The notes under the pieces are model-generated. The model made no database searches. It saw only the letters and a list, made by a program, of their open reading frames with translations, and was not told where the DNA came from. A program made the position numbers and the translations under genes. This document shows, piece by piece, positions 28,615 to 38,099 of a stretch of DNA of 64,000 nt (positions are counted from its first letter, which is position 1; each line of letters starts with the position of its first letter). This stretch comes from Candidatus Poseidoniales archaeon (GTDB taxonomy: Archaea > Thermoplasmatota > Poseidoniia > Poseidoniales > Poseidoniaceae), in assembly GCA_009887095.1 (NCBI GenBank), contig QXYC01000023.1, positions 1 through 64,000 on the forward strand, read 5' to 3'.

Positions 28615-29760
28615 TCAAAGCGGGTTTTCCGGAATAGTTCCTTTGTTATCGGATGCAGGCAGTGCCTGTAAATCCGCAAATGTCAGTTGATCTGGTGGAG
28701 CTTCACTCAACGTCGTCAATCGCTCCTTCATTTCCATTCGCACATGGAAATCAATGCGACCTTTTGTTCGAGTCAAGTCGTAAGACAGCGGGTTGATTGC
28801 TTCGATGATTTGGGTTTCAAAGTCATCTTTGACTCGACTTCCACGCCATAGAGAGTAGCCCCATCGGAAGGCGATCCCAACAACAGCTGCGCCATACAGC
28901 AGCATGAGAATCGAAGTTGCAAACAGGACAGCGTTGCCTGAACGTGATTCATCAAGGAGGTTCCTTCCAATCAAGAACACCAACCCAATGCCAACCAGCG
29001 GTTTGAGGATGCTTTCAAGCCATTGGTCGACGGGAACCAATCGGCCTTTGGCCGGGTCAACGAACACCAAATCTGACTCAAAGGCAGTGTTCATCACACT
29101 CAAAGCCCCCAAGAGGACAATGTAGAGGCCTGTGGCGACGCCCAGTTCCATGACCCACGAATCAAGGTTGAAGGTCCAATGGACAATGAGCCATGCGAAG
29201 AGCCCCAAAAAAGCACCCTGTGGCACGTGGTTGAAGTGAGTGACGTGCTGAGAGAATTCATTCATCTTGGTTGCGTCTTGCGTGGTGCCTCTGTGAGGTT
29301 TAGGGATGTGGATGATTTGCCAGTGCATCAGTTTCTCAATCGCAGTCAAGCCTTTGACCAGCAACCTTCGGCGAATGAGAAGCATTTCAATCAAAATGAG
29401 CACTGGCAGGCCAAGAAGAATCACGGGCAACGCCATGACTGCTGCCAGGGGGAAGATGATGATGGTTGGCAACAATAGAAAATGCGAGAGTGTCAAAGGA
29501 TGGAAGAGGTCCGCTTCAATCAAACGCTGTTGGCTCGGTTGGATGTGAAGGCTCCGTGCCACATCGTCCAGCGTCGCACGGAACGGTGCGACTTGTCGCC
29601 CCGCATCGATGATTTGTAGCACAGTGTTCCGGTACTGCGACTCTTCATGACCTGTTCCAGTGAAAAGCCGCCATGCGATCCGCATTGGCAAGGCAAGCAA
29701 GAGTGGGATGGACAGCAATCCAAGGGCCCACAACAATGCATTGACATCGACATCTGCCAT
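28615..29760 (-). CDS. polytopic membrane protein of unknown function
   Basis: The 381-residue protein has about seven hydrophobic helices, including LLWALGLLSIPLLLALP at the N-terminus, FLLLPTIIIFPLAAVMALPV joined to VILLGLPVLILIEMLLI, FLGLFAWLIVHWTF, VATGLYIVLLGALSV, LVGIGLVFLIG and ATSILMLLYGAAVVGIAF. A loop with HQPHRG-like basic residues lies between helices 3 and 4. I see no transporter or enzyme motif. The ATG at 29760 follows GAGGGGTACC; a GTG at 29772 is part of that site and is rejected as start. The gene is divergent from the SerA-like gene. Confidence 0.7.
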   Translation of the reverse strand: MADVDVNALLWALGLLSIPLLLALPMRIAWRLFTGTGHEESQYRNTVLQIIDAGRQVAPFRATLDDVARSLHIQPSQQRLIEADLFHPLTLSHFLLLPTIIIFPLAAVMALPVILLGLPVLILIEMLLIRRRLLVKGLTAIEKLMHWQIIHIPKPHRGTTQDATKMNEFSQHVTHFNHVPQGAFLGLFAWLIVHWTFNLDSWVMELGVATGLYIVLLGALSVMNTAFESDLVFVDPAKGRLVPVDQWLESILKPLVGIGLVFLIGRNLLDESRSGNAVLFATSILMLLYGAAVVGIAFRWGYSLWRGSRVKDDFETQIIEAINPLSYDLTRTKGRIDFHVRMEMKERLTTLSEAPPDQLTFADLQALPASDNKGTIPENPL

Positions 29761-29822
29761 GGTACCCCTCACGCCAGCCTACGGCTGAGCCCGTTTCAAA
29801 CATTGGGCCTATGTTGGAACAT

Positions 29823-29839
29823 GGCCTAAGATTCATGAC
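29823..29839 (+). promoter_or_regulatory. 17-base shared upstream element (copy 1)
   Basis: GGCCTAAGATTCATGAC begins 39 bases before the ATG of the SerA-like gene. An identical 17-mer begins 39 bases before the ATG of the surface-protein gene at 51970. The same sequence at the same distance suggests a promoter or operator. The TAAGAT core lies about 30 bases before each start, where a TATA box would be. Confidence 0.5.
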
Positions 29840-29861
29840 CTTTCTCGGTTACACACGCCTC

Positions 29862-30848
29862 ATGGCAAGAATCGCTGTCACAGACGGTATGGCCAAAGAT
29901 GCTGTCACTTTGCTCGAGGAATCCGGTCATGAAGTGGTTTTAGGGACCATTGGTGCCGAAGATTTACTGAACGGAGCGTTGTCAGAATTTGATGCCATTA
30001 TTGTCCGAAGTGCCACGAAAATTCCTGCCGCTGTCATTGAGGCGACAAGCGACCGGGTGCGTGTCATTGGGCGTGCAGGTGTCGGTGTCGATAACATCGA
30101 CATTGAGGCTGCTGCGCAATCCGGTGTGCCAGTCGTTAATGCACCTCGTGCTTCGACCCAATCCGTTGTTGAACTCACCATTGGACATCTTTTGTCATCC
30201 TTGCGACACATCCCTCGTTCTGACCGTGGTCTGCGCAACGGTCAGTGGGAGAAAAAAGCCATGAAAGGCACTGAACTATCGGGGAAAAACCTCGGTTTGA
30301 TCGGGTTCGGGCGCATCGCACAAGGCGTTGGTACCGTCGCACAAGCCCTCGGCATGGACATCCATACCTACGATCCTTATCTCCCACCGAAAGTAGCTAA
30401 AGCACAAAACACAATTCTTCACAAAAATGTCGACACCCTCTTTGCCAATTGCACACACATTTCGATTCACTGTAATTTGAACGATGAGACTCACCACTTG
30501 GTGAACGCAAAACGCCTTGCCATGATGCCCGGCCGGTCGAACGACGGCATCGACTGTGGCAATCACATTGTGAACTGCGCCCGAGGCGGTATTATTGACG
30601 AAAGCGCCCTGCTTGAAGCGCTTGAGACCGGCGTTCTTGCTTCCGCCGCTCTTGACGTGTTTGAAATTGAGCCAGTTCCAGCCGATGCCCCGCTGCTTCA
30701 GCATGAAAACTTCCATGGAACACCTCACATTGGGGCCGCTACAATGGAAGCCCAAGCACGTGTTGGTCGTGACATCGCTCTCGCAGTCATGGCCGTCCTT
30801 GATGGGAAGAAGTGTGAGACGACGGTCAATGCTCACCTGCTCGACTGA
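29862..30848 (+). CDS. serA: D-3-phosphoglycerate dehydrogenase-like (D-2-hydroxyacid dehydrogenase), short form
   Basis: The 328-residue NAD-dependent dehydrogenase has VIGRAGVGVDNIDIEAA, the nucleotide-binding KNLGLIGFGRIAQGVG (about residues 144-159), NCARGGIIDESALLEAL and the catalytic His in GTPHIGAATMEAQ. It would oxidise 3-phosphoglycerate for serine synthesis, fitting with glyA elsewhere in the window. It lacks the C-terminal ACT or ASB regulatory domains of long SerA forms. A small insertion (RSNDGIDCGNH) precedes the NCARGG strand. ATG 29862 is chosen because the family starts with 'ARIAVTDG'. Other 2-hydroxyacid dehydrogenase substrates cannot be excluded. Confidence 0.85.
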   Translation: MARIAVTDGMAKDAVTLLEESGHEVVLGTIGAEDLLNGALSEFDAIIVRSATKIPAAVIEATSDRVRVIGRAGVGVDNIDIEAAAQSGVPVVNAPRASTQSVVELTIGHLLSSLRHIPRSDRGLRNGQWEKKAMKGTELSGKNLGLIGFGRIAQGVGTVAQALGMDIHTYDPYLPPKVAKAQNTILHKNVDTLFANCTHISIHCNLNDETHHLVNAKRLAMMPGRSNDGIDCGNHIVNCARGGIIDESALLEALETGVLASAALDVFEIEPVPADAPLLQHENFHGTPHIGAATMEAQARVGRDIALAVMAVLDGKKCETTVNAHLLD

Positions 30849-30914
30849 TTCACTTTCACTTGAATCCTCGAGGGTCATGCGAAAGATGGTGTTCTTCCAT
30901 CCGATGCTTAGAGC

Positions 30915-31202
30915 ATGGGTCGAACAGTACCAACATGGCGGATGCGCATCGAAGATGAACTGAAGGCATTGGAGCCATTCCGCCGAGCGCTCCCTTCGAC
31001 GGAAAAACGCCTGTTTGATGAATTGTTGACAGGGGTTCGGAATCGAAGAACTGCAGGTGGTATGTTGCCGTCACATGAAGTTTGGAAACCGATGCTGCTG
31101 TCCATGATCGTCGAAGTGATGGCCCACAATCAGCAATTACAACGGCGCATTGATGCCCTTGAACACAACGGATTGGGTGGGCATGAACGGAACGATTCTT
31201 GA
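30915..31202 (+). CDS. small helical protein overlapping the PolB gene
   Basis: The 95-residue protein is mostly helical: IEDELKALEPFRRALPSTEK, then RLFDELLTGVRNRR, a Gly turn, and WKPMLLSMIVEVMAHNQQ running into QLQRRIDALEH, which looks like a short coiled coil. Its last 20 bases overlap the start of the PolB gene in another frame, so both are probably made from one mRNA with coupled translation. I do not recognise the family. By position it may be a subunit or adaptor of the altered polymerase. An ATG at 30942 is an alternative start. Confidence 0.65.
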   Translation: MGRTVPTWRMRIEDELKALEPFRRALPSTEKRLFDELLTGVRNRRTAGGMLPSHEVWKPMLLSMIVEVMAHNQQLQRRIDALEHNGLGGHERNDS

Positions 31203-33606
31203 TGTCCAGCCCGCTCAGAATGGTACTTCACTGGACGTTTGGTTGGTCGATGATGCGAACGGATCGATGAAAATCAATGTCCCATGGTGCCCCTCGATCC
31301 ATGTTCATGCAACTCGGCAGCGATTGAAGCATCTCTGGGCGTGGTTGGAACAACCCGAAATCCGAGACAGATTTGGACTCGGCATGATGCGGATTCACCG
31401 CTCCCGTCTGTCGCTTGATGCGTCGGAGGTCGATGAAGTGCTCGAAATCGATGTACACAACAGTTGGAATTTGAGGAAAGCAGCAACGCACATCGAATCG
31501 AGAGGCCAGTACCAACATTTCACCCTGTATTCAGTGGATGCCCACTTGGCGCAGCGTTTTCTTGTTGAGCATCGTGTGGCTCCGTTTCAAAAAGTTGTAT
31601 GGACCGGTGGTGTGTTCCATCACGAAGGCACGGATGTCGACGCGAATCCAACGCTTCACATCCTTCACATGGCGTTCGTCTACAGCACAGCAAACGGTTT
31701 TCATACTGAGGATGCAGAACTTGAACGAATTGAATTTCGTACGTGTTCTTCAGATGGAACATGCGATGCTACCTCACTTCCAACAGTGAGCATCACGCGT
31801 GATCCGACCCGATGCGCATCTCATTTTCTCAATCAATTGGAGGCCACAATGGCGGAACTCGACCCCGATGTCGTCGTGACGCATGGCGGCGATGGACTCC
31901 ATTTTCCTGCGCTGATGCGATTGGCTCAGGCATCAGGGGCATCGCTCTCATTGAGCCGTGATGGTCGTCCACTCGCAGCACGAACCTCAGCACGGACCCT
32001 GCATTCCTACGGACAAACATTGCACAAAGATGGCTACATTCCGTTGTATGGCAGGTTGCACATTGACCGAGTGGGGAGTTTCATTGTTCGAGAGGGTGGA
32101 TTACAAGGCTTGTTCGAACTTGCGCGTCATTCCCAACAATCGCCTCAAGATATCTCCCGACTCTCCCCCGGTTCTGTCATCAGTGCAATTCAAATGCGCA
32201 CTGCGATGGAAGATGGGGTGTTGGTGCCTTGGAAAAAGAACCGCCCAGAAGACACGAAGACGGCATGGTCACTGCTTCACGCAGATCGTGGCGGGCTCTA
32301 TCTTGACAGCAAACCCGGTGTGTATTCACATGTGATTGAGCTGGATTTCGCAAGCCTCTTTCCGAGCATCATCGCCACGCGAAACATCTCCACTGAAACG
32401 CTCAACTGCCCCTGCTGCCAAACAGAGGGTGCTTCATCGTCTGCTGCGTTTGTTCCGCTTCATCCAGATGAAGCTGAACGTGTCTTCACTGAACGACATG
32501 CACGGCGTCATTTCGGTGCAGGCTTGTTTCCTGTTCGTTCGTCTAAAGCGCTCCCAGTACCAGGTCTACCATCGCACACTTGCGCACGCGTTCATGGTTT
32601 TCTTGGGCGCATCGTTGCACCCCTCATTGAGCGTCGAAGGTTCCTGAAAACGCTTGTACGCCAGAAAGGTGACACATTCGATCAGCAACAAAACGCCCTC
32701 AAATGGTTGCTCGTCACATGTTTTGGCTACACAGGTTACAAGAACGCTCGTTTCGGACGCATTGAGGCACATGAAGCGATTTGTGCATGGGCGAGGGACA
32801 TTCTGCTCGAGACCATCGACATGGCAGAGCAAGAGGGTTGGGAGGTTCTCCATGCCATCGTTGATTGTGTTTGGATTCAAGATCGCCGGCAACGAACACC
32901 TGAGGAACGTGTGCATGACGCACATGCGTTTGCCCAGCGAGTGACGGAGAAAGTGGGGATCCCTCTTGAATACGAAGATCAGTATCGTTTCATCGGCTTC
33001 GTACCAAGTCGAGTCCACGGTGCAGGTTCGCTGACGAAATATTGGGCCTTTGGGCAACATGGATTCAAACTGCGTGGTGTCGAAGCACGCCAACATTCCA
33101 CATGCCCATGGATTGCCAACATGCAACGTGCAGCGCTCCAACTTTTGGTTGAACATTCTGATGAGATTCACGGCCTTCCAACACCGGCCGGACAACGTGC
33201 TGTGGCCCAGTTGTTGCACAGTGAACTCGCATCACTTCGCACCAACAATGTGGCGTTGGAAGATCTTGTTGTCGCTCGTCGAATCAACCGTGAACTCGAG
33301 CAGTTTGACGTTGCGACGTTAGCTCATGCTGCCTTGCTCCGAGGAAGGCTTCACGGCGTCACGATTCCACCCGGTGGCAAGGTGAAGTTCGCTGTGATTG
33401 CTTCGAGAGGCACGGTCCAACATGAGCGTGTGATTCTTCTTGAAGAACTGTTGTCAAACAATCCTCGAGGTGAACGGGCAAATGTGGAGCACTATCAGGC
33501 CCTCGCAATCCGTGCCATATGGGCAATCTTGTCTCCTTTTGGCTGGGATGAAGAGGAAATTGCGACGGGCCACAAACGCATCACTCTGGAGTCGTTCACC
33601 GCCTGA
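31183..33606 (+). CDS. divergent, probably inactivated family B DNA polymerase (PolB2-like)
   Basis: The 807-residue protein has the family B layout. A degenerate exonuclease domain (about 150-300) lacks the DxE of Exo I and keeps only an Exo II-like THGGDGLHFPAL. Palm motif A is DFASLFPS (Asp388). Motif B is KWLLVTCFGYTG (507-518), with the usual Asn-Ser replaced by Val-Thr. Motif C is IVDCVWI: Asp561 is kept, but the second catalytic Asp is Val563. The thumb part TKYWAF and KLRGVEARQHS...CPW is conserved. CPCC (409-412) may bind metal. This matches the archaeal PolB2 group, known to have disrupted active sites. ATG 31183 follows GGGTGGGC. It sits with a RecA-like and a Y-family polymerase gene, suggesting a structural role in lesion bypass. 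Confidence 0.85.
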   Translation: MNGTILDVQPAQNGTSLDVWLVDDANGSMKINVPWCPSIHVHATRQRLKHLWAWLEQPEIRDRFGLGMMRIHRSRLSLDASEVDEVLEIDVHNSWNLRKAATHIESRGQYQHFTLYSVDAHLAQRFLVEHRVAPFQKVVWTGGVFHHEGTDVDANPTLHILHMAFVYSTANGFHTEDAELERIEFRTCSSDGTCDATSLPTVSITRDPTRCASHFLNQLEATMAELDPDVVVTHGGDGLHFPALMRLAQASGASLSLSRDGRPLAARTSARTLHSYGQTLHKDGYIPLYGRLHIDRVGSFIVREGGLQGLFELARHSQQSPQDISRLSPGSVISAIQMRTAMEDGVLVPWKKNRPEDTKTAWSLLHADRGGLYLDSKPGVYSHVIELDFASLFPSIIATRNISTETLNCPCCQTEGASSSAAFVPLHPDEAERVFTERHARRHFGAGLFPVRSSKALPVPGLPSHTCARVHGFLGRIVAPLIERRRFLKTLVRQKGDTFDQQQNALKWLLVTCFGYTGYKNARFGRIEAHEAICAWARDILLETIDMAEQEGWEVLHAIVDCVWIQDRRQRTPEERVHDAHAFAQRVTEKVGIPLEYEDQYRFIGFVPSRVHGAGSLTKYWAFGQHGFKLRGVEARQHSTCPWIANMQRAALQLLVEHSDEIHGLPTPAGQRAVAQLLHSELASLRTNNVALEDLVVARRINRELEQFDVATLAHAALLRGRLHGVTIPPGGKVKFAVIASRGTVQHERVILLEELLSNNPRGERANVEHYQALAIRAIWAILSPFGWDEEEIATGHKRITLESFTA

Positions 33607-33615
33607 CATATCCGG

Positions 33616-34338
33616 TCATTCAATCTGATGATCGGTTCGTTGATCAATATGAGCATCAAGTCCAGTGTACCGATTGAGGTTGATTCCGTGTTGAGGCCAT
33701 TGCCCGATGGCGCCACTTGGTTGATGGGAAAGCCAACGCCGTACGTTTCGCCCTCGACCATGGACATGTTCTAGCAACTGGTGAGTTGCTTGCCGCTCGA
33801 CCATTCTCAGCAATTGTTGATGGCGCTTTGATTCTGGCTCGTGCCGGGTGATTACGAGGACGGCTGTGTTGACACGTTGTGCCACGCACCGCAATTCCTC
33901 GATCAACTGTCGCATCAAGCATCGAGCCTCATGGTCGCTAACTTGCCGGTCAAGATGCATGGCAATGGGGGCGTCGATGACCACGAGGGGTGCTGCAGTG
34001 ATGGAGACTTCACGCCCGAGCCGTTCCACGAGTGTGGTCAGTTGGTGTACGGTAAACCCTCGACCTACATACAGTCGGTGCAAGTGTTCTCGAGCGGATG
34101 AATCCCGCACTGGGAAACGGTTGAGGATGCGTGCAGGGTTCATCCGGGAGGCACCATCAATCCAATGCACGCATTCACCTTGCATCAACGCCGCAACCGT
34201 CCAAGCCTCGGCATATTTCCGCATGCTGCGCCCCGCATGGCCATGACCGCGCAGGTGGTAGACATGCCCACGCAGCGGGGAAATCACATCAAGGTCGAGG
34301 GTCATTTCCCGCCGCTGAACTGGTGCATAGGTTGCCAT
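33616..34338 (-). CDS. RadA/RecA-like ATPase paralogue with altered Walker A
   Basis: The 240-residue protein follows the RadA core. The P-loop is GHGHAGRS (31-38), with Arg37 in place of the catalytic Lys. VHWIDGASRMNPARI corresponds to RadA's 'YIDTEGTFRPERI'. LYVGRGFTVHQLTTLVERL matches RadA's 'VYVARAFN..HQM'. Walker B is PLVVIDAP (Asp122), followed by VNTAVLVITRH. The N-terminal helix-hairpin domain of RadA is missing and the C-terminal part is short. Weak or no ATP hydrolysis is predicted. It converges on the PolB2-like gene (9-base gap) and diverges from the Y-family polymerase gene (119 bases). The pairing recalls bacterial ImuA/SulA-like RecA relatives in mutasomes. Confidence 0.75.
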   Translation of the reverse strand: MATYAPVQRREMTLDLDVISPLRGHVYHLRGHGHAGRSMRKYAEAWTVAALMQGECVHWIDGASRMNPARILNRFPVRDSSAREHLHRLYVGRGFTVHQLTTLVERLGREVSITAAPLVVIDAPIAMHLDRQVSDHEARCLMRQLIEELRCVAQRVNTAVLVITRHEPESKRHQQLLRMVERQATHQLLEHVHGRGRNVRRWLSHQPSGAIGQWPQHGINLNRYTGLDAHIDQRTDHQIE

Positions 34339-34355
34339 ACTTTGGAAGGTTGAGA

Positions 34356-34381
34356 GTGAGGCCGACTTTCCTTCGCCTCAC
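34356..34381. promoter_or_regulatory. inverted repeat in divergent RecA-like/dinB promoter region
   Basis: GTGAGGC (34356-34362) and GCCTCAC (34375-34381) are perfect 7-base inverted arms with a 12-base spacer. They lie inside the 119-base intergenic region between the divergent RecA-like and Y-family polymerase genes, 18 bases from the RecA-like ATG. They could bind a regulator controlling both genes or form a leader hairpin of the RecA-like mRNA. No clear TATA box is seen on either side. Confidence 0.4.
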
Positions 34382-34457
34382 CCGTCGGCTGAAAGTGAAT
34401 GTAATCATGCCTCGCCACGTCATCAACTTGAAACACCGTGGGCAATAGAGACGATGC

Positions 34458-35591
34458 ATGAGGGCGGATGATGTGCAGCCTTCCTCGAATGAAGAGAGGA
34501 TTCTTGTTCACTGTGACCTTGACGCCTTTTTTGCCTCAGTTGAAATTCTTCATCGCAACCTCGATCCAAACCGACCACTGATCATTGGCTCGGACCCCCA
34601 AGGTGGACGAGGGCGTGGCATAGTGTCCACATGTAACTACGCTGCGAGAACCTATGGTATTCGGTCCGCAATGCCGATTGGCGAGGCATGGCGGCGATGC
34701 CCAGGGGCCCCATTTGGGCCAGGCCATTACATCAATGGGACGCGTGGATTGTACAGCCGTGCTTCCCGCAAGGTGATGGCCATTTTACGAGAACCTGCCG
34801 AACATTTTGAAAAAGCTGGAATCGATGAGGCGTATCTTGACATCACTCAAACAGTGGATGGCGATTGGGATGCTGCATATGCGCTGTGCCGCGAGTTACA
34901 ATCATCGGTCGAGGAGCAACTGGGTTTGACCGCTTCATTTGGGATTGCTCCGACCAGAATCCTTGCCAAAATGTCGAGTGAAATCAACAAACCAAACGGT
35001 ATTTTTCGACTCCTACCGGACGAAACATTGGAATTTTTCACGGGCCGTTCGTTGAGGGATGTGCCGGGTATTGGTCCAAAACGCGCGACACAATTGGCAG
35101 AGTGGGGATTCAACAATGTTGACGAAGCATATGAGCTTGGTGAGTTGGCGCTTGGGCGAATCGCTGGCGAACGGTTTTCATCGTGGCTGATCAACGTCGT
35201 CGATGGCTCGACAAGTCGGGAAGTCAGTCCACTTAGGAGTCGGAAATCCATCGGCAAGGAGCACACCTTTGCCGCGGATCAAACTGATAAAGAGCATGTT
35301 CTCCAACACCTCCAATCACTTGTTCATCATGTGATGACGAAAGCAAAATCCATTGGGGTTGCAGGTCGCTTGTGCGAAGTGAAAATCCGATACACTGGCT
35401 TTGAAACGCACACACACGGGCGTTCAATTCCAGTTGCAATGGATGACGTTGATGTGTTCGCTCGCCTCGCAGAGCGATTGTTTGCATTGAATGTCGATCA
35501 CAAACGGTCCATCCGTTTGATCGGTTTCAGATTGGGTCAACTGGCGATGCCATCGACCCGACAGGCTAAACTTCTGCTCGAAGAAGAATGA
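34458..35591 (+). CDS. dinB: Y-family DNA polymerase IV (translesion)
   Basis: The 377-residue enzyme copies past damaged bases. Catalytic residues are intact: Asp20 in VHCDLDAFFASVE and Asp123-Glu124 in GIDEAYLD. STCNYAARTYGIRSAMPI forms the finger, SFGIAPTRILAKMSSEINKPNG the palm, and VPGIGPKRATQL the helix-hairpin-helix of the thumb. The little-finger domain follows (SIGKEHTFAAD to FRLGQLAM). The end, RQAKLLLEEE, shows no clear PCNA-binding motif, which is unusual for Dpo4-like enzymes; binding through a partner is possible. It is divergent from the RecA-like gene. Its stop is one base from the end of convergent valS. Confidence 0.94.
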   Translation: MRADDVQPSSNEERILVHCDLDAFFASVEILHRNLDPNRPLIIGSDPQGGRGRGIVSTCNYAARTYGIRSAMPIGEAWRRCPGAPFGPGHYINGTRGLYSRASRKVMAILREPAEHFEKAGIDEAYLDITQTVDGDWDAAYALCRELQSSVEEQLGLTASFGIAPTRILAKMSSEINKPNGIFRLLPDETLEFFTGRSLRDVPGIGPKRATQLAEWGFNNVDEAYELGELALGRIAGERFSSWLINVVDGSTSREVSPLRSRKSIGKEHTFAADQTDKEHVLQHLQSLVHHVMTKAKSIGVAGRLCEVKIRYTGFETHTHGRSIPVAMDDVDVFARLAERLFALNVDHKRSIRLIGFRLGQLAMPSTRQAKLLLEEE

Positions 35592-35592
35592 A

Positions 35593-38085
35593 TCACTCAA
35601 GCGAATGCATTCGGGTGAGGATGGCCGTGAACGCTTCAAGTGATTCAGGGATTTCGACACCACTCACTGGCTGATTAAGTGAGATTCCTTGTTCTTTCTT
35701 GTAGCCCCATGTGTCACCGTTGAATGTTTGAAGCGTTGAAGACAACGCTCGGAGTGCGTCACCCTTCTCAGTCCCCATTGCAACCTCTGGGTAGGCCTGC
35801 TCTGGAAAAGCATCGACATCAACCGCAGATGCATCGTAAATGGTGGAAGACACATGGTGGGTAAAGAACGGGCACACTGGGGTGAACGCAGACATGAAGT
35901 CACGAACCACGCGATGGAGCGTCCATGCTGCGTTTGTATCCTCATCGTAAAGTCGTGATTTGACCATTTCGAGGTAATGGCTTGGCAATACACCAGTTCC
36001 AAATGTCTTGAGGGCTTGTGTCGCTGTGTAAATGTCAAGGTTTTGCCACGCTTTTTGGACCGTTTCCATGGTTGCTTGGAACTCTGCCAAAATCCATTCA
36101 TCTTCAACCGCGAGGCCATCGGGGCATGTGTCGAGGTCTTCTGGTACATCAAACTGGGACGCAAAGCGAGCCACGTTGAACAACTTGGTCAATACGCCGA
36201 AGTATTTCTTTTCAATTTCTTCTGGGTTGATGTGGAAATCATCGCCAACTTGAGCGTCGCAGGCTTTCCATAAACGGAAACATTCGCTCCCGATTTTGTT
36301 TGCTCGCAGGCTCACCGTCTTGTCTGGGCCCTTGACCTTCCAAGATCCAGTTCGGCCGCCTGCTCCACACTCCAATACGGAGTCGGCATCGATTCCGTTG
36401 CCAAGGGATTTGCTCATCTTTCGACCCCACGGGTCCATGCCCAAACCATCAATCCAAACATGTTTGAAACCAGGCTGGTCGAGCAAAAGGGTGGATTTCA
36501 GTAAGGTGTAGTAAAGCCATGTGCGAACGATTTCCTTCCCTTGTGGTCTCAAAGCGGTCGGGAATGCTTTTTCGAACACGTCAGGGTGGTTGAGGTAGCC
36601 ACTTACGAAAAGGTTGGAGTTGGAAGAATCCATCCATGTGTCGAACACTTTTTCTTCGCCCACGATGCTGCCAAGGTCCTTTTCCATCTCCGCAAAGGTT
36701 CCAAGAACGTCTCGCGATGAGCGATCAAGAACTTGACTTCCCTCCGGTGGTGACTGGCACCAAGGTTGGACATACATTCCGGTTGGAGGAACAATGATTT
36801 TGTCGGCATCATCGCAATACCAAATTGGAATCTCCGTGTGGTACCAGCGTCGCCTCGAGATTGGCCAATCAATACTGATATTGTCCATCCAATCGAGGAG
36901 GAATTGTTTGTTTCTTGGTGGATGGAACTCCATCTCATCTGCATGTTCTTTGATACGATCTTGTGTGTGGGTTTGACGTACATACCACTCTTTCAACAAA
37001 ATAATCTCGACTGGATTCTTGCCTCGCTCCGAAACTGGAATCTCTTGCTCGCGTTCGACGACATTGACCAACCTTCCTTCGCTTTCGAGGTGTTCAATAG
37101 CTGCGGCTCGTGCTTCGAGGACTGTCTGGCCGGCAAACGGCCCTGCGAGTTCGGTCATTCGCCCTTCGAGGTTGATGGCTTGGAACGGTGTAAGGCCGAG
37201 TTCACGAAACACGGCCACGTCGTTTTGATCACCAAATGAGCAGACCATTAGGACGCCGCTCCCAAAGTCTGATTTTACCGATGGGTGAGTTTTGATTTCG
37301 ACGCTTGTTTCGCGACCATGAACGGGCATTGGCAATTGGATGCGTTTTCCGACCAAGTGACTGTACCGTTCGTCATCTGGGTGAACAACAACCACGCCAC
37401 AGGCGCAAATTAATTCTGGTCGTGTCGTCGAAATCACAATTTCAGTTCCATCATCGCACGTCCATTGAACATCGATGAGTTTTGTTCGACGTGGCAATCG
37501 TTCTACTTCAGCATCAGCAATGGTGGTTCCTTCCACAGGGTCGTAGATGTTCGGGCGCAAATCTTCAATGATGGCTCCTTTCTTGAACAATTCAATGAAG
37601 ATTGACTGAGTGACGGTTCGGTATTCTGGTGAGTCGGTGAGGTACTCTCTGTCATAGTCGCATGAAAGGCCAACTCGGCGGGCGGTTTTCCTCATGGCTT
37701 GAGTGAATTCTTCGATGGTTGTTTTGCACATTTCTAAGAATTCAGCACGATCGTATGTCTTCATCTTTCGCTTCGTGTTCTTCTCAACGGTGAATTCGAT
37801 GTTGATTCCGTTTCGGTCGACCCCCCAAGGGAAGTAGACTTCCTTTCCGAGCAAACGTTGCGAACGGGCAATGACGTCGATCATTGAATATTGAGCCACT
37901 GCGCCGATGTGCCATGTGCCTGATGGGTATGGTGGAGGCGTATCAATGACGAAGATTTCCTTGTTGCTTTCAGGGTTGAATGCATACCTGCGTGCATAGA
38001 CCTGTGGGTCTTCTGTATGCGCTTCTTGGATTCGCTTTTCAAGGTCAATCGACCATCGTTTATCGCTTAGTGTCGGGGCTGGCAT
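35593..38085 (-). CDS. valS: valyl-tRNA synthetase
   Basis: This is an 830-residue class I synthetase. The first signature is PSGTWHIGA (His59 area), where the last His of HIGH is Ala. Editing-domain ISTTRPELICACGVVVVHPDDERY is typical of ValS. GRKMSKSLGN is at about 554-563. Just after KMSKS there is an extra segment of about 27 residues (ECGAGGRTGSWKVKGPDKTV and on) before the usual 'FRLW' helix. No C-terminal coiled-coil arm is present. ATG 38085 follows AGGTGAGG; a GTG at 38094 belongs to that site. A hairpin lies just upstream. Assignment to valine rests on the editing and core motifs; confusion with IleS is unlikely. Confidence 0.9.
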   Translation of the reverse strand: MPAPTLSDKRWSIDLEKRIQEAHTEDPQVYARRYAFNPESNKEIFVIDTPPPYPSGTWHIGAVAQYSMIDVIARSQRLLGKEVYFPWGVDRNGINIEFTVEKNTKRKMKTYDRAEFLEMCKTTIEEFTQAMRKTARRVGLSCDYDREYLTDSPEYRTVTQSIFIELFKKGAIIEDLRPNIYDPVEGTTIADAEVERLPRRTKLIDVQWTCDDGTEIVISTTRPELICACGVVVVHPDDERYSHLVGKRIQLPMPVHGRETSVEIKTHPSVKSDFGSGVLMVCSFGDQNDVAVFRELGLTPFQAINLEGRMTELAGPFAGQTVLEARAAAIEHLESEGRLVNVVEREQEIPVSERGKNPVEIILLKEWYVRQTHTQDRIKEHADEMEFHPPRNKQFLLDWMDNISIDWPISRRRWYHTEIPIWYCDDADKIIVPPTGMYVQPWCQSPPEGSQVLDRSSRDVLGTFAEMEKDLGSIVGEEKVFDTWMDSSNSNLFVSGYLNHPDVFEKAFPTALRPQGKEIVRTWLYYTLLKSTLLLDQPGFKHVWIDGLGMDPWGRKMSKSLGNGIDADSVLECGAGGRTGSWKVKGPDKTVSLRANKIGSECFRLWKACDAQVGDDFHINPEEIEKKYFGVLTKLFNVARFASQFDVPEDLDTCPDGLAVEDEWILAEFQATMETVQKAWQNLDIYTATQALKTFGTGVLPSHYLEMVKSRLYDEDTNAAWTLHRVVRDFMSAFTPVCPFFTHHVSSTIYDASAVDVDAFPEQAYPEVAMGTEKGDALRALSSTLQTFNGDTWGYKKEQGISLNQPVSGVEIPESLEAFTAILTRMHSLE

Positions 38086-38099
38086 GTGCCTCACCTGGC

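Follow-up and report, generated by a model that had tools for sequence, protein, structure and literature searches.

The window analysed here, a stretch of 64,000 nucleotides (nt) from a Candidatus Poseidoniales archaeon (GenBank assembly GCA_009887095.1, contig QXYC01000023.1, positions 1 to 64,000 of the forward strand), carries a small protein gene, a family B DNA polymerase gene, a gene for a RadA-like protein and a Y-family DNA polymerase gene side by side, and raises the question of whether these four neighbours form one translesion module and what might switch it on. The locus is very probably a damage-inducible PolB2 extender mutasome, controlled by an ultraviolet (UV) box and split into two convergent transcripts. 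Judged by its sequences, the trio of PPB2, PolB2 and iRadA is that of the known PolB2 mutasome (PMC11791011; this and the other papers named by PMC number are cited from extracts), here in marine group II archaea, and DinB, the Y-family polymerase, is apparently a long-standing occupant of this site and not a mutasome member. The module was already known and is smaller than a sequence-only reading of the window had proposed; the new part appears to be a fixed inversion of iRadA with antisense overlap, together with a UV box shared by both promoters. The open-licence literature yielded no work on PolB2 in Marine Group II, on translesion synthesis in Poseidoniales or on a damage response of marine group II and, among papers found there for the motif and archaea, by title only that of 2008 on Halobacterium (PMC2556686) concerns archaea. 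The one paper retrieved for the damage response deals, by its title, with bacterial GC content.

The features of the locus are:

30849-30862, plus strand: UV box (TTCACTTTCACTTG) of PPB2, 52 nt 5' of the PPB2 start codon
30915-31202, plus strand: PPB2, an arCOG07300-like small helical protein of 95 amino acids (aa) with an MGRT start, assigned from its MGR[TS] start, its adjacency to PolB2 and the description in PMC11791011
31150-33606, plus strand: PolB2, a family B translesion polymerase, assigned from Pfam DNA_pol_B and motifs A and C, with a profile match from 31186
33616-34338, minus strand: iRadA, a RadA/Rad51 relative with the P-loop GHGHAGRS, assigned from a RadA profile, Foldseek and cross-phylum profile matches
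34386-34405, minus strand: UV box of iRadA, two overlapping position weight matrix (PWM) matches, 47 nt from the iRadA start and 52 nt from the DinB start
34458-35591, plus strand: DinB/Pol IV-type Y-family polymerase (IMS/IMS_C), resident of a SerA-DinB-LeuRS block

The trio of mutasome genes

The sequence-only reading had described four neighbouring genes at 30915-35591, comprising a small protein overlapping the polymerase start, a family B polymerase with degraded exonuclease and motif C, a RecA/RadA-like protein with a changed P-loop and an active-looking Y-family polymerase, and as a description of the genes this is borne out throughout: all four open reading frames (ORFs) are in place, and that of the 95-aa MGRT protein overlaps that of PolB2. 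PolB2 of the window matches Pfam DNA_pol_B (E 4.9e-25); its ORF opens at TTG 31150 and its conserved part begins near ATG 31183, overlapping PPB2. Exonuclease motif II, NGDSFDFP in solved PolB structures, has become GGDGLHFP with loss of the Asp, and motif C, YIDTDG in those structures, has become HAIVDC, in which Ile stands for the first Asp and the second is kept; the motif A Asp is also retained. A decayed exonuclease combined with replacement of the first motif C Asp characterises the polymerase of the PolB2 mutasome. All 89 Poseidoniales PolB2 sequences compared have IVD in motif C, with Ile throughout in place of the first Asp, and motifs A and B are near-invariant among them while exonuclease motif II drifts. 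Some members of the PolB2 mutasome have a clamp-binding motif at the C-terminal end of PolB2 or of iRadA, and a strict QxxLxxF lies within the last 30 aa of 40 of 95 PolB2 proteins (shuffles gave a mean of 1.9 and a maximum of 8); the C-terminus in the window has only RITLESF, which is not a strict match. The window's genome encodes another family B polymerase on a different contig. PolB2 is split between two open frames in four genomes (G120, G127, G174 and G212), for which decay and assembly error are both possible.

The small protein fits PPB2, which bears an MGRT arm (PMC11791011), in its size, its position next to PolB2 and its conserved N-terminus, as every one of 90 homologues starts with MGR[TS] (MGRT in 66, MGRS in 24). 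The same paper describes iRadA as an inactive RadA. A single-sequence search with iRadA of the window gave a marginal Rad51 match (E 0.05) and, against the PDB, matched no chain; a 13-row profile matched RadA (E 3.9e-10), and the predicted fold of the 240-aa protein resembles RadA/Rad51 (Foldseek E about 1e-8), the model having a mean predicted local distance difference test (pLDDT) score of 69, with ends under 50 and a core mostly at 80-94. The protein has the RadA fold without the N-terminal domain, as expected of iRadA, and its P-loop carries Arg for Lys. Across the order, the P-loops of 94 iRadA proteins comprise 22 of the form GxxxxGK[ST], 16 GxxxxGK, 21 GxxxxG followed by another residue and 35 with none of these; the 22 canonical-looking loops are all in family f1 (for example L119, L049, L048 and L031), and 29 of the 30 proteins of family f2 are without a GxxxxG loop of the kinds counted. 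Profiles of Poseidoniales iRadA and PPB2 also detect their counterparts in the co-directional operons of other Thermoplasmatota.

Inverted iRadA and the UV box

In the window, iRadA is convergent with PolB2 across a 9-nt gap and divergent from DinB across a 119-nt gap, a minus-strand placement that the sequence-only reading had not mentioned. The inverted, convergent orientation recurs in 94 of the 94 Poseidoniales loci with both genes in the stretch (four further PolB2 loci have no iRadA within it), and the 3' ends of the two genes overlap in 86 of them (56/64 in f1 and 30/30 in f2). The overlap measures 4-219 nt and is often constant within a genus, such as 121 nt in 7/7 g12 loci. The window is one of the eight loci without overlap, and so is G012, where PolB2 and iRadA are separated by two genes. 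At L006:9513-11458 the tail-to-tail arrangement is broken, as happens rarely, by about 2.3 kb containing two genes, and the same gap is present in L012.

Among other Thermoplasmatota, a PolB2 match was present in 59 searched genomes, and in the 40 of those loci examined iRadA was detected in 32, always co-directional with PolB2 and preceding it in 31 and following it in one (L193 has an extra weak minus-strand match, E 4e-3, across the same iRadA gene). With the genes convergent in 94/94 loci in Poseidoniales and co-directional in 32/32 in the rest of the phylum, the sampled loci show the inversion in Poseidoniales only. PolB2 mutasome genes share one orientation "in most cases" (PMC11791011), a usual though not universal arrangement that Poseidoniales do not show, and their gene order may be among the variants in that paper. 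Overlapping 3' ends would make the inversion hard to undo. Ten haloarchaeal plasmid loci have two unnamed genes (about 700-950 and 260-340 nt) 5' of PolB2 on the same strand, the long one possibly iRadA and the short one starting with MGR or VGR in 6/6 checked.

Expectation-maximisation motif discovery, run separately on 34 PPB2 upstream regions (at most three per genus) and 36 iRadA upstream regions, recovered TTCACTTTCACTTT before PPB2 (log-likelihood ratio 204, against 37-44 in three shuffles) and TTCAttTTCACTTT before iRadA (144, against 39-46 in shuffles), which are the same motif; the shuffles were simple base shuffles run from 40 starts, half the 80 used for the real regions. Scored with a matrix built from part of the same regions, 77 of 88 PPB2 regions and 49 of 91 iRadA regions have a box of at least 10 bits, at a nearly constant position. 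Before PPB2 it lies at -68 from the start (quartiles -70 and -66); before iRadA the quartiles are -129 and -119, counted from a profile start inside the protein. At the same cut, it is found in 193 of 5000 random stretches and, among control upstream regions, in 0/33 for SerA, 1/38 for LeuRS, 0/37 for the MMPL-like gene and 0/36 for the gene at 28618. The matrix-free word TTTCANTTTCA is in 23/88 PPB2 and 13/91 iRadA regions, against 0/144 control regions.

The PPB2 box of the window is the top PWM match on both strands of the whole 64 kb (19.3 bits), the iRadA box being third-best (15.7 and 11.2 bits for its overlapping matches), and it is the single exact copy of the 13-letter box TTCACTTTCACTT both in the window and in the window's own genome. 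Exact copies number 0-5 per genome and are present in 185 of 243 Poseidoniales genomes, compared with 16/243 for a permuted 13-mer, used as control because TTCACTTTCACTT reads identically backwards and a reversed word would be useless. Since both promoters carry TTCACTTTCACTT, co-expression of the trio can persist after the split. The box also precedes radA: at 10 bits or more it was found upstream in all 30 loci scanned (the best 30 matches from a search of 60 genomes), reversed in 29 and forward in 11, against 604 of 4000 random stretches on either strand, a rate inflated by radA boxes within those stretches. Boubriak et al. (2008; PMC2556686) reported an 11-bp motif, TTTCACTTTCA, common to the UV-B-induced Halobacterium genes radA1, top6B, vng17 and vng280 and located about 50 bases upstream of their starts. 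As TTCACTTTCACTT resembles this motif of haloarchaeal genes and also marks radA, the trio is predicted to be inducible by DNA damage (UV) together with RadA.

Several observations weigh against a uniformly shared, damage-responsive control. In 42/91 loci no iRadA box reaches 10 bits, and the box is unevenly spread over the genera (present in 0/7 of g12, 0/6 of g21, 1/7 of g5 and 9/24 of g2); the PPB2 box likewise falls short or is missing in 5/6 of g5, so that control may not be shared in every genome. The radA box is mostly reversed at about -110 (29/30), unlike the spacing of about -50 in Halobacterium, and the PPB2 box of the window has 10 of the 11 Halobacterium motif letters (ATTCACTTTCA). 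The box was not found in operons of other Thermoplasmatota (PPB2 0/30; iRadA 2/29, both weak), and its origin as an ancestral trait of PolB2 operons was rejected on that account. Among 12 haloarchaeal PolB2 operons, it is clear at -66 in two (both Halobaculum), weak at -60 in one (Halorubrum) and absent or unconvincing in nine; the best match in L355 scores 8.7 bits, at -152. The assignment of the first gene is uncertain in L352 and L355, and the count omits L344, L347, L356 and L359, which have no annotated trio. A scan of L344 and L347 showed no box before polB2 itself. As for the protein partners, the 22 intact-looking P-loops mean that the "inactive" label of iRadA is, on sequence grounds, not uniform.

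DinB at the site and competing explanations

DinB of the window is of the DinB/Pol IV type (Pfam IMS, E 3.6e-37; HCDLDAFF and GIDEAYLD present) and is the sole Y-family match in the window's genome, which is 68% complete. Its site is bordered by two genes that serve only as markers:

29811-30848, plus strand: SerA-like 2-hydroxyacid dehydrogenase, left border
35593-38094, minus strand: class I aminoacyl-tRNA synthetase, which we take to be LeuRS, right border

Trio genes adjoin DinB in 44 loci, the window among them, and the order SerA-trio-DinB-LeuRS-MMPL holds to the limits of the stretches examined. Of 40 trio-free DinB loci, a chosen set from 38 genomes in which the trio is absent or elsewhere, 38 have an uninterrupted SerA-DinB-LeuRS block, the exceptions being L153, at a contig end, and L164, which is rearranged. 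In a tally of the 243 genomes (PolB2 counted at E 1e-18 or better, excluding PolB3 matches), family f1 had PolB2 and DinB together in 63 genomes, PolB2 alone in 4, DinB alone in 46 and neither in 8; family f2 (n = 122) had the two together in none, PolB2 alone in 31, DinB alone in 9 and neither in 82. The tally includes many incomplete genomes, and Y-family genes that are very distant may have escaped it.

The tree of 89 PolB2 proteins has 42 on-site and 47 off-site rows and three site changes, at least two of them forced by well-supported branches, and genera g1, g2, g4 and g7 are intermingled in one off-site clade, suggesting that the trio has been transferred. A decayed PPB2 remnant (MGRTVPTWR..., E 2.5e-6) lies in the SerA-DinB gap of locus L168, one of 10 such gaps inspected, in a g11 genome without a PolB2 match, and the trio was probably present at this site and later lost. 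Upstream of DinB without the trio, no box of 10 bits was found in 39 of the 40 loci, the exception having 11.8 bits; beside the trio, a box is upstream of DinB in 2/44 loci in the forward direction and in 20/44 reversed, where it is the iRadA box. The scatter of its distance in these 20 loci (standard deviation 18 nt to dinB and 14 nt to iRadA) does not decide whether dinB is included.

These results bear directly on the possibility of a four-component mutasome, in which DinB would insert and PolB2 extend, the linkage being selected and the divergent promoter shared. Adjacency across genera g1, g2, g3 and g5, with PolB2 41-95% identical to that of the window, is consistent with it, as are the position of the iRadA box in the window, about 50 nt from the starts of iRadA and DinB alike, and the sequential action in Sulfolobus of Dpo4 and then Dpo2 at abasic sites (PMC8721586). 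However, the block persists without the trio in nearly all the trio-free loci sampled, where the box is all but absent, the trio is off-site in more than half of the tree rows under a history that one old event plus losses could explain, and f2 has PolB2 genomes and DinB genomes that never coincide. A four-gene PolB2-DinB module was rejected on this basis as improbable, and with it the conserved adjacency of four families that the sequence-only reading had put forward for survey; of the translesion module that it proposed, PPB2, PolB2 and iRadA stand as the described PolB2 mutasome and DinB does not. The PolB2 tree, which needs just three site changes, neither shows nor excludes that the trio was inserted beside dinB several times independently, a pattern that would have spoken for selected linkage.

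An explanation of a different kind, and a very improbable one, holds that PolB2 is catalytically dead and that the trio regulates replication or RadA filaments. It draws on the Ile at the first motif C position in 89/89 sequences and on the inactivation predicted by earlier authors (PMC4104785), but PolB2 with this Asp replaced is active (PMC11791011), and Sulfolobus Dpo2, with the same change, extends mispaired ends and is needed for damage-induced mutagenesis (PMC8764526); the constancy of motifs A and B beside a drifting exonuclease motif II also argues against a dead enzyme. "Inactivated", as the polymerase had been called, is the wrong word, and the proposed reversal of roles between an active Y-family polymerase and a dead PolB is not supported, since relatives with the same motif C change are active mismatch extenders. 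Least probable of all is that the box is a general promoter element of Poseidoniales, like the transcription factor B recognition element (BRE) and unrelated to damage: its fixed distance from starts does recall core promoter elements, but it is nearly absent from the four control gene sets and from trio-free DinB, and a general element would sit poorly with so few exact copies per genome. The damage-inducible, split PolB2 mutasome is the reading that we prefer.

A possible order-wide regulon and known systems

The box is also found before genes other than those of the trio. Among 80 exact-box loci inspected, a selection rather than a census, with 30 from chosen genomes and 20 chosen singly as places, 56 are upstream of recurring families, three of single genes and 21 are without assignment. 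The families are a beta-propeller-like protein (16), a 58-64-aa protein (15), RadA (8, of which 5 reversed), a 100-aa protein of f2 (7), an OB-like protein (4), PPB2 (3), another small protein (2) and iRadA (1), the "propeller" and "OB-like" names resting on weak Pfam matches below cut-off; the single genes are Orc1 and, named by eye, CinA-like and Top6B-like.

The 58-64-aa protein (53 aa in one copy) has a WTPLAP..R motif, mostly ends in (H)(S/G)DMLS, has the UV box about 50 nt upstream and matched no Pfam family; its loci (L248, L251, L253, L284, L287, L288, L292, L314, L320 and L327) belong to several Poseidoniaceae genera, and it is a candidate damage-induced small protein. The beta-propeller-like protein (165-208 aa; L229-L233, L237, L239, L240, L242, L247, L285, L293, L308, L323, L326 and L328) has an exact box about 50 nt upstream, and the OB-like protein of f2 (about 130-138 aa; L305-L307 and L329), with weak Pfam matches only, has one 58-64 nt upstream. 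Three of the four OB-like loci are from g15, a genus with DinB and without PolB2. On the Halobacterium salinarum plasmid PHS2 (L344:865-2272), an IS200/IS605 transposase gene lies immediately 5' of polB2, with TTTTACTTTCA 52-62 nt before the start, and the same arrangement of TTTTACTTTCA is stated for the UV-B-induced npa (PMC2556686).

Orc1/Cdc6 was considered as the protein that reads the box; the Sulfolobus DNA damage response element ANTTTC is bound by Orc1-2 (PMC9738581). Of 40 Poseidoniales genomes, 39 encode a pair of Orc1/Cdc6 proteins, a canonical one and a divergent one. An exact box lies 77 nt upstream of canonical orc1 in L315, a locus picked by its box; nine other canonical orc1 loci have no sense match of 10 bits, one having a reversed match of 11.2 bits (L343), and the canonical protein was rejected as the box binder. 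The divergent paralogue is a candidate regulator.

An order-wide DNA damage regulon of Poseidoniales keyed by TTCACTTTCACTT, SOS-like in coupling RadA, the split mutasome and several undescribed proteins, with dinB perhaps drawn in where adjacent, is a rather likely extension of these findings. Under the mechanism that we propose, replication would stall at a lesion and DinB (where present) or another polymerase would insert first, the module not depending on DinB; PolB2, its exonuclease site decayed, would bind iRadA and a PPB2 trimer, and the complex would extend the mispaired or lesion-capped primer end, iRadA acting mainly as a docking subunit. Complex formation and extension activity in Poseidoniales are inferred from published relatives. 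The co-directional operon of other Thermoplasmatota is broken in Poseidoniales, with iRadA inverted on the other side of PolB2, so that the mutasome would be made from two convergent transcripts. Damage would activate a factor at the box, and the transcripts of both mutasome halves would rise along with RadA. In loci with dinB next to the trio, the iRadA box is near both starts and may draw dinB into the response.

Sunlit surface water is the habitat of marine group II archaea, and the regulon, if true, would amount to an SOS-like response in archaea of the sunlit ocean. A promoter box that can be read from sequence and is shared with experimentally UV-induced haloarchaeal genes provides a concrete, testable regulon for uncultured archaea, one that connects RadA, their main recombinase, with a probable extender polymerase and with new small proteins. 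In addition, the split PolB2 locus offers a natural experiment, in which an operon was broken in two and the same box is found at both ends in many genomes.

Comparison with known systems places the locus at different distances from each. The bacterial ImuA-ImuB-DnaE2 and Pol V mutasomes likewise combine a RecA-family partner with a damage-bypass polymerase, an analogy only, as polymerase families and partners differ and there is no homologous subunit set: a family B polymerase and an intact-looking DinB stand here where those systems have the family C DnaE2 and the inactive Y-family ImuB. In Sulfolobus, dpo2 is damage-inducible (PMC8764526), and ACTTTC inside the Poseidoniales box fits ANTTTC (PMC9738581), although six letters with one free mean little. 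The Halobacterium UV-B motif (PMC2556686) is closer, being matched in the window one letter off, 52 nt before PPB2, with similar spacing of about 50 nt and with radA marked in both; the Poseidoniales box differs in marking both mutasome halves and several small genes, and in being mostly reversed, at about -110, before radA. The closest relative is the PolB2 mutasome itself (PMC11791011, PMC4104785), taken to be a heteropentamer, with which the locus shares the three families, the motif C change, the MGRT arm, the RadA-like partner and tight linkage, and from which it differs in the inverted, convergent iRadA of all 94 loci, the antisense overlap in 86 of them and the use of two promoters instead of one.

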